64,000 nt of DNA from Daejeonella sp. (GTDB lineage: Bacteria; Bacteroidota; Bacteroidia; Sphingobacteriales; Sphingobacteriaceae), in contig NZ_JAUYSS010000072.1 in assembly GCF_030695525.1 (NCBI RefSeq), forward strand, positions 1-64,000. The letters are read 5' to 3'. Below are positions 4,939 to 62,280 of the stretch, piece by piece (the first letter of the stretch is position 1; every line of letters begins with the position of its first letter). Position numbers and translations under genes: made by a program. The notes under the pieces were generated by a model. The model was not told the DNA's origin. It worked only from the letters and a program-made list of their open reading frames with translations, and did no database searches.

Positions 4939-6039
4939 ATGGCATTACAGTGCGGTATAGTCGGATTACCAAATGTTGGAAAATCTACACTTTTTAATTG
5001 TTTATCGAATGCAAAGGCGCAGGCGGCGAATTTTCCATTCTGCACCATCGAACCAAATATCGGTGTTATTACCGTACCTGATCCGCGTTTAACCAAACTT
5101 GCCGAACTGGTAAAACCGGTTAAGGTTCAGCCAAATACGATAGAAATCGTGGATATTGCAGGTCTTGTGAAGGGAGCCAGCAAAGGCGAAGGACTAGGAA
5201 ACCAGTTTTTGGGAAATATACGTGCTACTAACGCAATCATACATGTTCTGCGTTGTTTTGATGATGATAATGTGATCCATGTGGATGGTGCAGTTGATCC
5301 AATCAGGGATAAAGAAATTATTGATACAGAACTGCAGTTAAAAGACCTTGATGCGGTTTCAAAGCGCATCCAAAAGGTTGAGAAAATGGCTAAAACAGGG
5401 AATGATAAGGACGCAAAAAAGACCTACGAGGTTTGCAATATCGTCAAAGCACACCTTGAATCAGGCAAATCTGTCCGTACTGCTCCTATCAGTTTAGAAG
5501 ATAAAGAATTTATCGCCGACCTGTTTTTATTGACTGAAAAGCCGGTAATGTACGTGTGTAATGTGGATGAAAAATCGGTTGTAAGCGGAAATCAATATGT
5601 AGATAAAGTTCGAGAGGCTGTAAAAGAAGAAAATGCAGAGGTCCTGGTTATTTCAGCTCAAATTGAGGCCGAAATAGCTTCCCTTGAAAGTTTTGAAGAA
5701 CGAAAGATGTTCCTTGAAGACCTCGGACTGAGCGAATCAGGAGTAACCCAATTAATACGGGCTGCTTATAAATTATTAAAGCTGGCAACCTATTTCACTG
5801 CAGGTGTGCAGGAAGTGAGAGCCTGGACTATTACACAAGGATTTACAGCTCCACAGGCAGCCGGTGTTATTCACACCGATTTTGAAAAGGGTTTTATCCG
5901 TGCAGAAGTAATCAAATACGATGATTTTGTAAATCTTGGCTCTGAAGCCGCTTGTAAGGAAGCCGGAAAGCTGGGTGTGGAAGGCAAAACTTATATCGTG
6001 CAGGATGGAGATATCATGCATTTCAGATTTAATGTTTAG
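4939..6039 (+). CDS. ychF: YchF/Ola1-type redox-regulated ATPase
   Basis: 366 residues, the standard length. YchF is an Obg-related P-loop NTPase that prefers ATP, binds ribosomes and acts in translation and oxidative-stress control. The P-loop GLPNVGKST lies at 9-17, IVDIAGLVKGASKGEGLGNQFL forms the switch II region, NVDE is the altered G4 motif, and the C-terminal ~85 residues form the TGS-like domain ending in HFRFNV. The ATG follows a tract of short tandem repeats. tRNA-Arg follows with its own promoter, so the gene is probably monocistronic. Confidence 0.95.
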   Translation: MALQCGIVGLPNVGKSTLFNCLSNAKAQAANFPFCTIEPNIGVITVPDPRLTKLAELVKPVKVQPNTIEIVDIAGLVKGASKGEGLGNQFLGNIRATNAIIHVLRCFDDDNVIHVDGAVDPIRDKEIIDTELQLKDLDAVSKRIQKVEKMAKTGNDKDAKKTYEVCNIVKAHLESGKSVRTAPISLEDKEFIADLFLLTEKPVMYVCNVDEKSVVSGNQYVDKVREAVKEENAEVLVISAQIEAEIASLESFEERKMFLEDLGLSESGVTQLIRAAYKLLKLATYFTAGVQEVRAWTITQGFTAPQAAGVIHTDFEKGFIRAEVIKYDDFVNLGSEAACKEAGKLGVEGKTYIVQDGDIMHFRFNV

Positions 6040-6087: not shown

Positions 6088-6159
6088 GTGCCCATAGTTC
6101 AATGGATAGAATTGCAGATTCCGGTTCTGCTGATGGGGGTTCGAATCCCTCTGGGCACA
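6088..6159 (+). tRNA. tRNA-Arg (anticodon CCG)
   Basis: A full cloverleaf can be drawn. Acceptor stem: gtgccca with tgggcac. Anticodon stem: gcaga with tctgc, enclosing the loop ttccggt, so the anticodon is CCG and the codon read is CGG. T-arm: ggggg-ttcgaat-ccctc. The discriminator is A6159. The 3' CCA is not encoded. A disrupted second copy follows at once. Confidence 0.95.
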
Positions 6160-6180
6160 CAAAATTTCCATAGTTCAATG

Positions 6181-6208
6181 CCCGCCCGGTTGAACTCGTT
6201 CGGACGGG
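6181..6208 (+). repeat. 28-bp palindromic unit, copy 1
   Basis: Begins cccgcccgg and ends cgttcggacggg; the arms pair as an imperfect hairpin with one mismatch and one wobble. It stands in tandem with copy 2 inside the D-loop of the tRNA-Arg copy. Confidence 0.85.
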
Positions 6209-6236
6209 CCCGCCCGGTTGAACACCGTTCTGACAA
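6209..6236 (+). repeat. 28-bp palindromic unit, copy 2 (degenerate 3' arm)
   Basis: Follows copy 1 directly. The left arm cccgcccggttgaac is intact; the right arm has decayed to cgttctgacaa. The length is still 28 bp. Confidence 0.75.
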
Positions 6237-6262
6237 GGATAGAATTGCAGATTCCGGTTCTG

Positions 6263-6290
6263 CCCGCCCGGCTAAGGCCGTTCGGACGGG
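6263..6290 (+). repeat. 28-bp palindromic unit, copy 3
   Basis: Begins cccgcccgg and ends cgttcggacggg. The flanks ttctg and ctgatgg are contiguous in the intact tRNA at 6088-6159, so exactly 28 bp were added here, with no target duplication visible. Confidence 0.85.
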
Positions 6291-6324
6291 CTGATGGGGG
6301 TTCGAATCCCTCTGGGCACACAAA

Positions 6325-6351
6325 CCCCGGATTTAATCCGGGGCTTTTTTT
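6325..6351 (+). terminator. rho-independent terminator after the tRNA-Arg pair
   Basis: ccccggat-tta-atccgggg forms an 8-bp GC-rich stem followed by ctttttttg. It lies just behind the 3' end of the second tRNA copy, so one transcript from 6072 would cover both copies. Confidence 0.85.
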
Positions 6352-6423: not shown

Positions 6424-6936
6424 TTAACCTGAATTCAATATAAGGAAAGGTAAAAAATACGGTCATAATTGGTCAGATAAGGCTCTGGAGCCCTTATTAT
6501 TGATTTTGAAACCAATACCTGTGTGCTATAGGTTGGTTCAGTCCTTTCCTACGGAGTATTTCCGGCAAGAAATCGCGTTCCCCTCTGGTCGGTGTTCTCC
6601 GTACCAAGCACGATCATATCATTGGTCGGTGATAACACCGACCACAGGCGGATAGCCGGAAGATACCTCCTCCGGCAAGGTTTATTTTACCTGGTTCTGT
6701 TTTTCATCGGGACCGACAGCCCGGCAAAAGGACTACCTGCCATTTGAAATAAACCCGGGTGGCAGCTGTAGCTTTTTTGCAACACGGAATTTCATGATAT
6801 AGACAAAAAGCTGCAAAAAACTACAGTACAACACGGGACTTGCGTGACCGAAGAATCACAGAACTTGCTTTCCTAAACAAAAGAAAAATAGTCAATCTAA
6901 TTAGTCCTGAAAGATTTTATATCAAACTCAGGTTAA
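6424..6936 (+). repeat. TIR-bounded structured repeat element, copy 1 (513 bp)
   Basis: Fills most of the gap between the tRNAs and the DUF1080 gene. The first 20 bp (ttaacctgaattcaatataa) and the reverse complement of the last 20 bp agree at 17 positions. Inner hairpins: ttccggc with gccggaa, gtttattt with aaataaac, and ttttttgca with tgcaaaaaa. Related copies lie at 8569-9033, 32375-32730 and 38141-38786. No convincing ORF was seen. It resembles a MITE or a mobile structured RNA. Confidence 0.8.
6574..6647. repeat. palindromic module inside repeat copy 1
   Basis: A ~74-bp double inverted repeat: ctggtcggtgtt pairs with aacaccgaccacag, and an inner accaa pairs with ttggt. It sits in the variable loop between ttccggc and gccggaa. 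A near-identical module occupies the same place in copy 4 (38292-38366) but is missing from copies 2 and 3. Confidence 0.75.
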
Positions 6937-40118: not shown

Positions 40119-40241
40119 AGCATTCCCGAACCTTCGGGACAGCGGCGGCATTTATTCGTTTTTTTCTATTGTTTTTAAGGTACTCATGGTCTCGTAGTTC
40201 CTCCTCGGCATGTTTCTTTTCTGCTGCAGGAAAAGAAAAAG
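40119..40241 (-). repeat. ~120-bp dispersed repeat, uninterrupted copy
   Basis: The reverse complement of this segment matches 62131-62280 over about 120 bp with scattered changes (cttttcctgcag-cagaaaag … catgccgaggagg … gaccatgagtacctt … ccgaaggttcggg). It lacks the 28-bp palindrome present in the other copy, so it shows the uninterrupted site. Confidence 0.8.
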
Positions 40242-62130: not shown

Positions 62131-62280
62131 AGTCCTTTTCCTGCAGCCCGCCCGGATGAACCCGTTCGGACGGGCAGAAAAGGACCATGCCGAGGAGGAA
62201 CGACGAGACCATGAGTACCTTAAAAACAATAGACAAAAACGAATAAATGCCGCCGCTGTCCCGAAGGTTCGGGAATGCTT
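62131..62280 (+). repeat. ~120-bp dispersed repeat, copy interrupted by a 28-bp palindrome
   Basis: Inverted relative to 40119-40241. Apart from scattered substitutions the difference is a 28-bp insertion at 62147-62174, between cctgcag and cagaaaag. Confidence 0.8.
62147..62174 (+). repeat. 28-bp palindromic unit, copy 4
   Basis: Begins cccgcccgg and ends cgttcggacggg, as in the tRNA-Arg copies. The uninterrupted site at 40119-40241 shows that exactly 28 bp were gained here. Confidence 0.85.

Follow-up and report, generated by a model that had tools for sequence, protein, structure and literature searches.

Some integrative elements that insert in tRNA genes restore their target, an intact tRNA standing at one end of the element and a partial copy at the other. 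In REP/RAYT systems the repeats flank a tyrosine transposase gene. Palindromes scattered in bacterial genomes have been described under several names: REP sequences (GTAG superfamily) carry an unpaired GTAG at the base of their hairpin, and CGTC palindromes an unpaired CGTC tag, a stem of 8 to 9 bp and a CCA-like tail, both according to the available part of PMC3733652. The portion of PMC2229807 accessible to us places Rickettsia palindromic elements (RPEs), 105 to 146 bp long, in conserved protein genes, intergenic DNA and RNA genes; their occurrence inside the tmRNA and RNase P RNA genes means that palindromes in bacterial RNA genes are already known. Stand-alone GIY-YIG proteins are known as well, as the available section of PMC1564403 attests.

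Here we analyze a locus with features of several of these systems. The window, that is, the whole stretch of DNA under study, is 64,000 nucleotides long and comes from Daejeonella sp.; it contains an intact tRNA-Arg(CCG), hereafter T1, and next to it a displaced second copy, T2, interrupted by three inserts. The pattern is a recurrent class in Bacteroidota, found across several tRNAs and linked to GIY-YIG genes. The features of the window are as follows.

4939..6039, + strand: ychF-family GTPase gene, an ORF with a Pfam YchF-GTPase_C match of 140.1 bits; upstream neighbour of tRNA-Arg(CCG) in Daejeonella
6088..6160, + strand: T1, intact tRNA-Arg(CCG), found by ARAGORN and by Rfam RF00005 (62.8 bits)
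6161..6320, + strand: T2, displaced tRNA-Arg(CCG) copy with a damaged acceptor 5' strand and three inserts (68/68 against T1)
6168..6180, + strand: T2 part 1, CCATAGTTCAATG, acceptor end and 5' half of the D arm, from the alignment with T1
6181..6208, + strand: insert 1, a 28-bp palindrome at the centre of the D-loop (RNA fold -11.8 kcal/mol)
6209..6237, + strand: insert 2, 29 bp, a decayed palindrome in tandem whose 3' arm is gone (RNA fold -3.3 kcal/mol)
6238..6262, + strand: T2 part 2, 3' half of the D arm and anticodon arm, from the alignment with T1
6263..6290, + strand: insert 3, a 28-bp palindrome at the junction of anticodon stem and variable loop (RNA fold -14.2 kcal/mol)
6291..6320, + strand: T2 part 3, variable loop, T arm and acceptor 3' strand, from the alignment with T1
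6322..6351, + strand: hairpin and T run resembling an intrinsic terminator, seen as an inverted repeat; it lies directly 3' of the single tRNA in genome G009
62147..62174, + strand: the 28-bp palindrome once more, as part of a longer dispersed repeat (CATGCCGAGGAGG...), of which empty copies exist at loci L043, L045 and L049

An earlier note on this DNA had placed both copies correctly, at 6088-6351, and had recognized T2 as a second tRNA-Arg(CCG) beside an intact one; indeed, with the inserts removed, T2 is identical to T1 at 68/68 nucleotides (tRNA positions 5-72). The end of a ychF-family gene precedes tRNA-Arg(CCG) in G001, G003, G007, G008, G009 and G019 as well. In T2 the 5' strand of the acceptor reads ATTTCCA versus GTGCCCA in T1, and 5 of the 7 acceptor pairs are left, one of them G-U, pairs 1 and 3 being gone. 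As the earlier note had proposed from this altered strand, T2 is probably a pseudogene, that is, a non-functional tRNA copy. ARAGORN and Rfam report T1 only, neither of them reporting T2 as a tRNA; ARAGORN should be used with caution as a test, since it calls the plugged copies of L064 and L281. Folded freely, the whole of T2 gives no cloverleaf and is no more stable than shuffled sequences (z -1.1). No terminator-like feature is present in the 7 bases separating T1 and T2 and one follows T2, from which we infer that T2 would be transcribed as a trailer of T1. Downstream of the locus, at 6582-6648, lies an imperfect 18-bp inverted repeat with a 31-nt spacer.

The midpoint of the D stem-loop, GTTCAATG^GATAGAAT, is where inserts 1 and 2 follow each other in tandem; insert 3 is at TTCTG^CTGATGG. 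Two tandem 28-bp palindromes had been described in the D-loop: the tandem arrangement, the location and the 28 bp of the first stand, but the second is 29 bp long, and its 3' arm is CGTTCTGACAAG, not CGTTCGGACGGG, whereby the palindrome is lost. Insert 3 is indeed 28 bp long, and no target duplication is seen at the T2 inserts against T1. The insert boundaries can be shifted by a single base, which is a G for the D-loop and a C for the anticodon stem; insert 3 accordingly lies either at the junction of the stem with the variable loop or one base into the stem; with this reservation, the inserts do occupy loop positions, as had been stated. The proposal that each would fold as a hairpin of its own applies to inserts 1 and 3, but not to insert 2, whose fold reaches only the -3.3 kcal/mol given above. 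Chance was rejected as the source of these palindromes: their pattern has three matches in the window and none in 200 windows generated by an order-1 Markov model.

The palindrome is present elsewhere, where the earlier note had suggested looking for it. Five sites in the window's genome match it with at most 3 mismatches, and an exact match to a broader palindrome pattern exists in 14 of 399 genomes of the family, namely 10 of 20 Daejeonella and 4 in one other genus. Among the matches listed, 63 distinct sites were read with their flanks, a reading that leaves out some sites of G003 and G007: 12 are in tRNA D loops and 2 at the tRNA anticodon stem, and the remainder are in dispersed repeats or are singles. 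The base preceding the palindrome is G in 61/63 of these listed sites, the flank being otherwise variable. Paralogous empty (L043, L045, L049) and filled (L044, L047) sites of the CTTTTCCTGCAG^CAGAAAAG repeat can be compared, as can an empty copy of the GACCCCGAAGGTG^GTC repeat that lies beside a filled one within L114 of G003; in both cases there is no target duplication. Tandem copies of the palindrome occur in G017. In G007 and G008, 11 sites each lie in repeats unrelated to tRNAs, G007 having no GIY-YIG match at an E-value of 1e-6 and G008 only a weak one; the palindrome can therefore spread without a GIY-YIG gene nearby.

For 11 insert families of genera g1 and g19, the sites as they would be when empty, 59 in number, were compared with random positions in the same loci. 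Only a few families outside tRNAs look hairpin-centred (fraction of random positions scoring as high: 0.022, 0.033, 0.057 and 0.082) and the others range from 0.47 to 0.9997, while the tRNA D arm scored 0.19 and the anticodon site 0.89. With few non-tRNA families scoring and the tRNA sites not doing so, we rejected a general targeting of hairpin tips; since the test gave no firm support, it is solely the position of the inserts within tRNAs that speaks for a preference for loops. Two other repeats were encountered in this genome (G000). One, with the core CATGCCGAGGAGGNACGACGAG, is found at 62186-62207 (+), at 40191-40212 (-) and at 14 other places, thus 16 in all at up to 3 mismatches, some with the 28-bp palindrome in the preceding stem; the other, starting with CATTGCGAGGAGGCACGACGAAGCAATCT, is clustered at L056-L058 on contig C54, with several copies within a few kb.

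Within the genus, G009 offers an empty site: its single tRNA is directly followed by the terminator that follows T2 in the window, and the alignment of the two loci shows one clean extra block of 161 bp between tRNA and terminator, 161 bp being also the spacing of the direct repeat at the window locus. No second copy is found directly behind tRNA-Arg(CCG) in the 3' flanks of G001, G002, G004, G005, G006, G009, G010, G016 and G018. The earlier note had named two outcomes that would overturn its reading, an ancestral long form and the absence of the 28-mers elsewhere in this and related genomes. Neither was observed: the palindrome does occur elsewhere, and same-genus genomes with the short form only do exist, although either form may be the ancestral one. 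Second Arg(CCG) copies are present in the window's genome, G003, G008 and G019, with a decayed form in G007; in G008 the copy is interrupted by an apparent insertion sequence, and G019 has two such copies 2 kb apart. As other genomes of the genus show the same T1/T2 structure, an artefact of sequencing or assembly is unlikely. This insert recurs at an identical D-loop position in the second Arg(CCG) copies of G003, G008 and G019, and again in the second Arg(CCT) copies of G003, G011, G118, G114, G081 and G058. The second copy of G003 matches the tRNA of G003 itself, which is only about 80% like that of the window over the aligned part; second copies therefore either co-evolve with their own tRNA or arise repeatedly.

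Beyond the genus, the GTDB species set was scanned with a pattern made of the end of the D arm followed by the palindrome, in one orientation. Of the 101 stretches returned, 31 are, by eye, tRNA-Arg D arms with a palindrome, all from records whose titles name Bacteroidota groups (a script recount gave 30, L203 being missed for one base), and the other 70 are not tRNA-Arg D arms and mostly bear names from other phyla. The hosts are Daejeonella, Pedobacter, Pelobium, Sphingobacterium, Algoriphagus, Belliella, Cecembia, Cyclobacterium, Cognataquiflexum, Pleomorphovibrio, Terrimonas, Taibaiella, Ferruginibacter and relatives. With the end of the D arm and a single orientation written into its pattern, the scan documents the spread of the arrangement and not a preference for the D-loop. 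A related strict pattern, which would miss degenerate copies, matched 10 of 13 host genomes, and in 7 the D-loop copy is the sole match. The 28-mer CCCGCCCGGCTGACGCCAGTCGGACGGG is identical to the letter in 11 copies at 10 loci, in families that include Cyclobacteriaceae and Chitinophagaceae. A plain tRNA-Arg(CCT) match, of full or nearly full length, is present in 11/11 of the genomes with a plugged copy that were checked, and all six g1/g19 genomes that have a plugged Arg(CCT) copy (G003, G011, G058, G081, G114 and G118) have a plain tRNA-Arg(CCT) too.

More complex arrangements were also observed. In L088, L090 and L091 (genus g19), 5' halves of tRNA-Arg(CCT) with a D-loop palindrome lie upstream of the intact gene, and they are tandemly repeated in L088 and L090. 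In L169 (Cyclobacteriaceae) a tRNA-Arg(CCG) copy is present as two repeat units, and both its D loop and its T loop hold palindromes; in L283 one palindrome is apparently nested inside another in a tRNA D loop.

At many of the plugged loci an intact tRNA is followed by an ORF of 80 codons encoding a GIY-YIG protein (PF01541, 46.1 and 48.6 bits for two members) and then by the palindrome-bearing tRNA copy; the mirror order, in which a 5'-partial plugged copy is followed by the GIY-YIG ORF and the intact tRNA, is also seen. Where the ORF runs directly into the plugged copy, its stop codon is the TAG that belongs to GTAGTTCAA of the tRNA, and the palindrome follows a few bases later. To avoid the bias of selecting loci by their palindrome, the GIY-YIG protein alone was then used as the query against 395 genomes of the class (E-value 1e-18). 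This retrieved 11 loci in 11 genomes, and a partial tRNA copy with a GC-rich palindrome was visible by eye at 11/11, a script finding the insert in 6 of the 10 loci that have a called tRNA. The palindrome lies in the Arg(CCT) D loop at L280, L284, L285, L286 (with no more than half of each arm visible) and L287, in the Arg(CCG) D loop at L281 and L283, in the Arg(CCG) anticodon loop at L282, and in the T loop of Gln(CTG) at L288 and of Met at L290; at L289, an Arg(ACG) locus, it lies at the junction of acceptor and D stem, outside any loop. L284 is on the same contig as the scan match L195, and its intact tRNA is 50 kb away.

As a control, the same script was applied to loci retrieved by nothing but their tRNA similarity. 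It found an insert in an extra copy at 11/15 loci with a GIY-YIG motif versus 2/73 without one, figures that indicate a direction only and not a clean rate, because some genomes had been chosen partly for their palindrome, several of the loci overlap one another, and a plugged copy that belongs to a different tRNA type escapes the script (in Algoriphagus, 0 found versus 3/30 present). One control match, L155 in G010, has an insert in an extra partial copy near tRNA-Phe and no GIY-YIG motif.

A wider search of the 20 Daejeonella genomes (E-value 1e-6) gave 15 GIY-YIG loci, spread over 13 genomes. At 14/15 a tRNA, whole or fragmentary (Arg, Leu, Asp, Met, Ser or Val), is found, partly by eye, and a palindrome in the partial copy at 11/15, namely 6/14 by script and 5 by eye; among the latter, the palindrome of L305 is imperfect, and those of four Asp cases are located between the anticodon and T arms, outside a loop. 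None was seen in a partial copy at L296, L301 or L303, and L293, which ends with its contig, was left out of the script. At L296 (G019), the GIY-YIG gene is beside what by eye resembles the 3' end of a tmRNA. The window's own genome has a single GIY-YIG match (E-value 3.8e-11), at a tRNA-Leu(TAA) locus on contig C47 (L298), where the partial copy has TCCCGATAGCTATCGGGA in its D loop. No GIY-YIG gene is present between T1 and T2 in the window, and none was seen in the parts that were read of the Arg(CCG) loci in G003, G008 and G019. Other GIY-YIG loci of Daejeonella carry other palindrome sequences, so one palindrome is not tied to one nuclease, and what stays constant is that a spare tRNA copy bears a palindrome at one of its arms, whatever the sequence of that palindrome. 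The bases that precede T2 (ACA AAA TTT CCA TAG) hint at a likeness to the final codons of GIY-YIG ORFs, such as ACA AAA TTA ATC CCG TAG in G011, but over a very short stretch.

The genus Algoriphagus adds information on the origin of the two copies. Its tRNA-Arg(CCT) genes are of at least two sequence types, and both are plugged by the same 28-mer. The intact and the plugged copy of A. hitonicola differ in type, and in Algoriphagus L246 the two types are swapped; it follows that intact and displaced copies are seemingly of different origins at these two loci. Such differing types seem to fit a unit that enters a native gene with a tRNA of its own. This pattern is not general, as T1 and T2 share the same body at several loci, among them L172 and L223. 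At Algoriphagus L311 a plugged and an intact copy are neighbours, and no ORF separates them.

The reading we favor, with a probability of about 0.5, is that T2 is a displaced, non-functional copy of tRNA-Arg(CCG) left by a GIY-YIG unit and plugged by palindromes, the nuclease gene being absent from the window. A small GIY-YIG nuclease unit would enter a tRNA gene, one of its ends carrying or regenerating an intact tRNA, and the displaced copy would end up truncated, with a palindrome in one arm, often exactly at the centre of the D-loop. The nuclease would cut the tRNA gene, and the palindrome might arrive during repair or with the unit; it might then block re-cutting or kill the spare copy. 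If the T2 of the window arose by this route, the nuclease gene was deleted there or was never present, and T1, T2 and the palindromes remain. The observations behind this reading are the anatomy of T2, the empty site of G009, the recurrence of the insert at one tRNA position, the association with GIY-YIG genes (palindrome-blind search, control and search of the genus), the genomes whose sole strict match is in that D loop, the 28-mer identical across families, the plain copies in all genomes checked and the two tRNA types of Algoriphagus. That T2 retains the terminator found behind the single tRNA of G009 also counts for it. Against it count the lack of a GIY-YIG ORF at the window locus and at the Arg(CCG) loci of G003, G008 and G019, the single GIY-YIG match of this genome being at tRNA-Leu, the spread of the palindrome away from tRNAs, the other palindromes of other GIY-YIG loci, the 4/15 loci of the genus at which no palindrome was seen, the position of the insert at L289, and L311. 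The shared body of T1 and T2 at L172 and L223 also counts against it, since T1 should then be as cuttable as the native gene.

The window locus alone cannot separate this displacement from its chief rival, in which a plain tandem duplication of the tRNA produced a spare pseudogene, a REP-like mobile palindrome, spread by some enzyme, inserted in it later, and GIY-YIG genes are irrelevant at the locus. We consider this account a serious one, at somewhat below even odds. It sits well with the missing GIY-YIG gene and with the apparent mobility of the palindrome in the genus, as judged from the pairs of empty and filled sites, that of L114 included, and from the tandem copies of G017, and for the inserts to persist it needs only spare DNA. 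What it leaves unexplained is that an identical D-loop base is hit in two tRNA species across many genera, the 11/11 link with GIY-YIG genes, and the genomes in which the D-loop copy is the sole strict match.

More specific, and in our view doubtful, is the idea of a cut-and-rescue element, a tiny GIY-YIG nuclease that would cut essential tRNA genes in the loop of an arm and so home into them. Its own intact tRNA, in Algoriphagus of another sequence type than the displaced gene, would serve as the rescue, and a palindrome copied into the cut loop of the displaced native gene would render that copy both uncuttable and dead; the window would then be the fossil of such an event in tRNA-Arg(CCG), its nuclease gene since lost. 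It is improbable that the palindrome is instead kept by selection, either as a terminator or because it blocks the folding of T2, so that RNase P spares the end of a GIY-YIG message that overlaps the start of the tRNA. The ORFs directly upstream of T2 that stop within GTAGTTCAA, just ahead of the palindrome, would suit this explanation, but palindromes are also found in 5'-partial copies upstream of the ORF (L190, L199, L215, L231), which are unable to fold as a whole tRNA, and at loci that have no ORF, the window included. Finally, that T2 is a working tRNA whose inserts are tolerated as extra hairpins or removed like an intron, which the earlier note had left open, is very improbable: the hairpins of inserts 1 and 3, the five acceptor pairs left and the lack of a terminator-like feature ahead of T2 agree with it, but two acceptor pairs, 1 and 3, are missing, insert 2 has decayed, no cloverleaf forms in the free fold, which is no more stable than shuffles, the copy is decayed in G007 and apparently disrupted in G008, and plain copies exist in 11/11 genomes checked.

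Should displacement by a GIY-YIG unit be the true history, Bacteroidota would carry a selfish unit of some 80 codons. This unit would exploit essential tRNA genes, and the palindrome in an arm of the displaced copy would be its readable mark. Three matters would become testable: the movement of short palindromes with no obvious transposase, the reason why GIY-YIG genes adjoin tRNAs in Bacteroidota, and the existence of rescue-type gene drives in bacteria. On the practical side, palindrome-plugged tRNA copies are missed or misread by tRNA finders.

How does this class compare with known systems? Full-text searching, with subscription papers mostly outside its reach, returned no paper that describes palindromes within tRNA copies next to GIY-YIG genes. 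Membership among MITEs is not indicated: inverted ends are present, but the empty and filled pairs show no duplication beyond one ambiguous base. The inserts resemble REP/RAYT and CGTC-tagged palindromes, as far as the available part of PMC3733652 describes them, in being gene-less, in the 20-40 bp range, and in tandem or dimers; unlike them, they are untagged, with no unpaired GTAG or CGTC, and recur at tRNA arm loops. REP membership was rejected on the tag, there being no GTAG except one 5 bases upstream in the Arg(CCT) copies, which is tRNA sequence, and CGTC membership because the reverse strand reads CCCGTCCG..., its CGTC being inside a paired arm. With RPEs, to the extent covered by the accessible portion of PMC2229807, they share a location inside genes, RNA genes included, but differ in being mostly 27-36 bp long and, within tRNAs, in being confined to spare copies. 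The difference from integrative elements that restore a tRNA is that no integrase is seen, that the unit is tiny and that a palindrome is inside the partial copy. A likeness to free-standing GIY-YIG homing endonucleases and stand-alone Slx1-like proteins (PF01541; PMC1564403, available section) lies in the small single-domain ORF at one kind of site, and the intact and displaced target copies that flank this ORF at many loci recall homing endonucleases. The nuclease ORF in or next to its target, a feature of homing elements, is found at 11/11 loci of the class and 14/15 of the genus, though not at the window locus. A homing endonuclease cleaves a target that is still empty and leaves an occupied one intact, and its element spreads between lineages faster than by descent; the identical 28-mer across families and the swapped Algoriphagus tRNA types may point to such a spread here. 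What sets the present class, with its putative cutting activity, apart from homing endonucleases is that a tRNA gene serves as the target, an intact copy of it remaining alongside, and that a palindrome marks the displaced copy.
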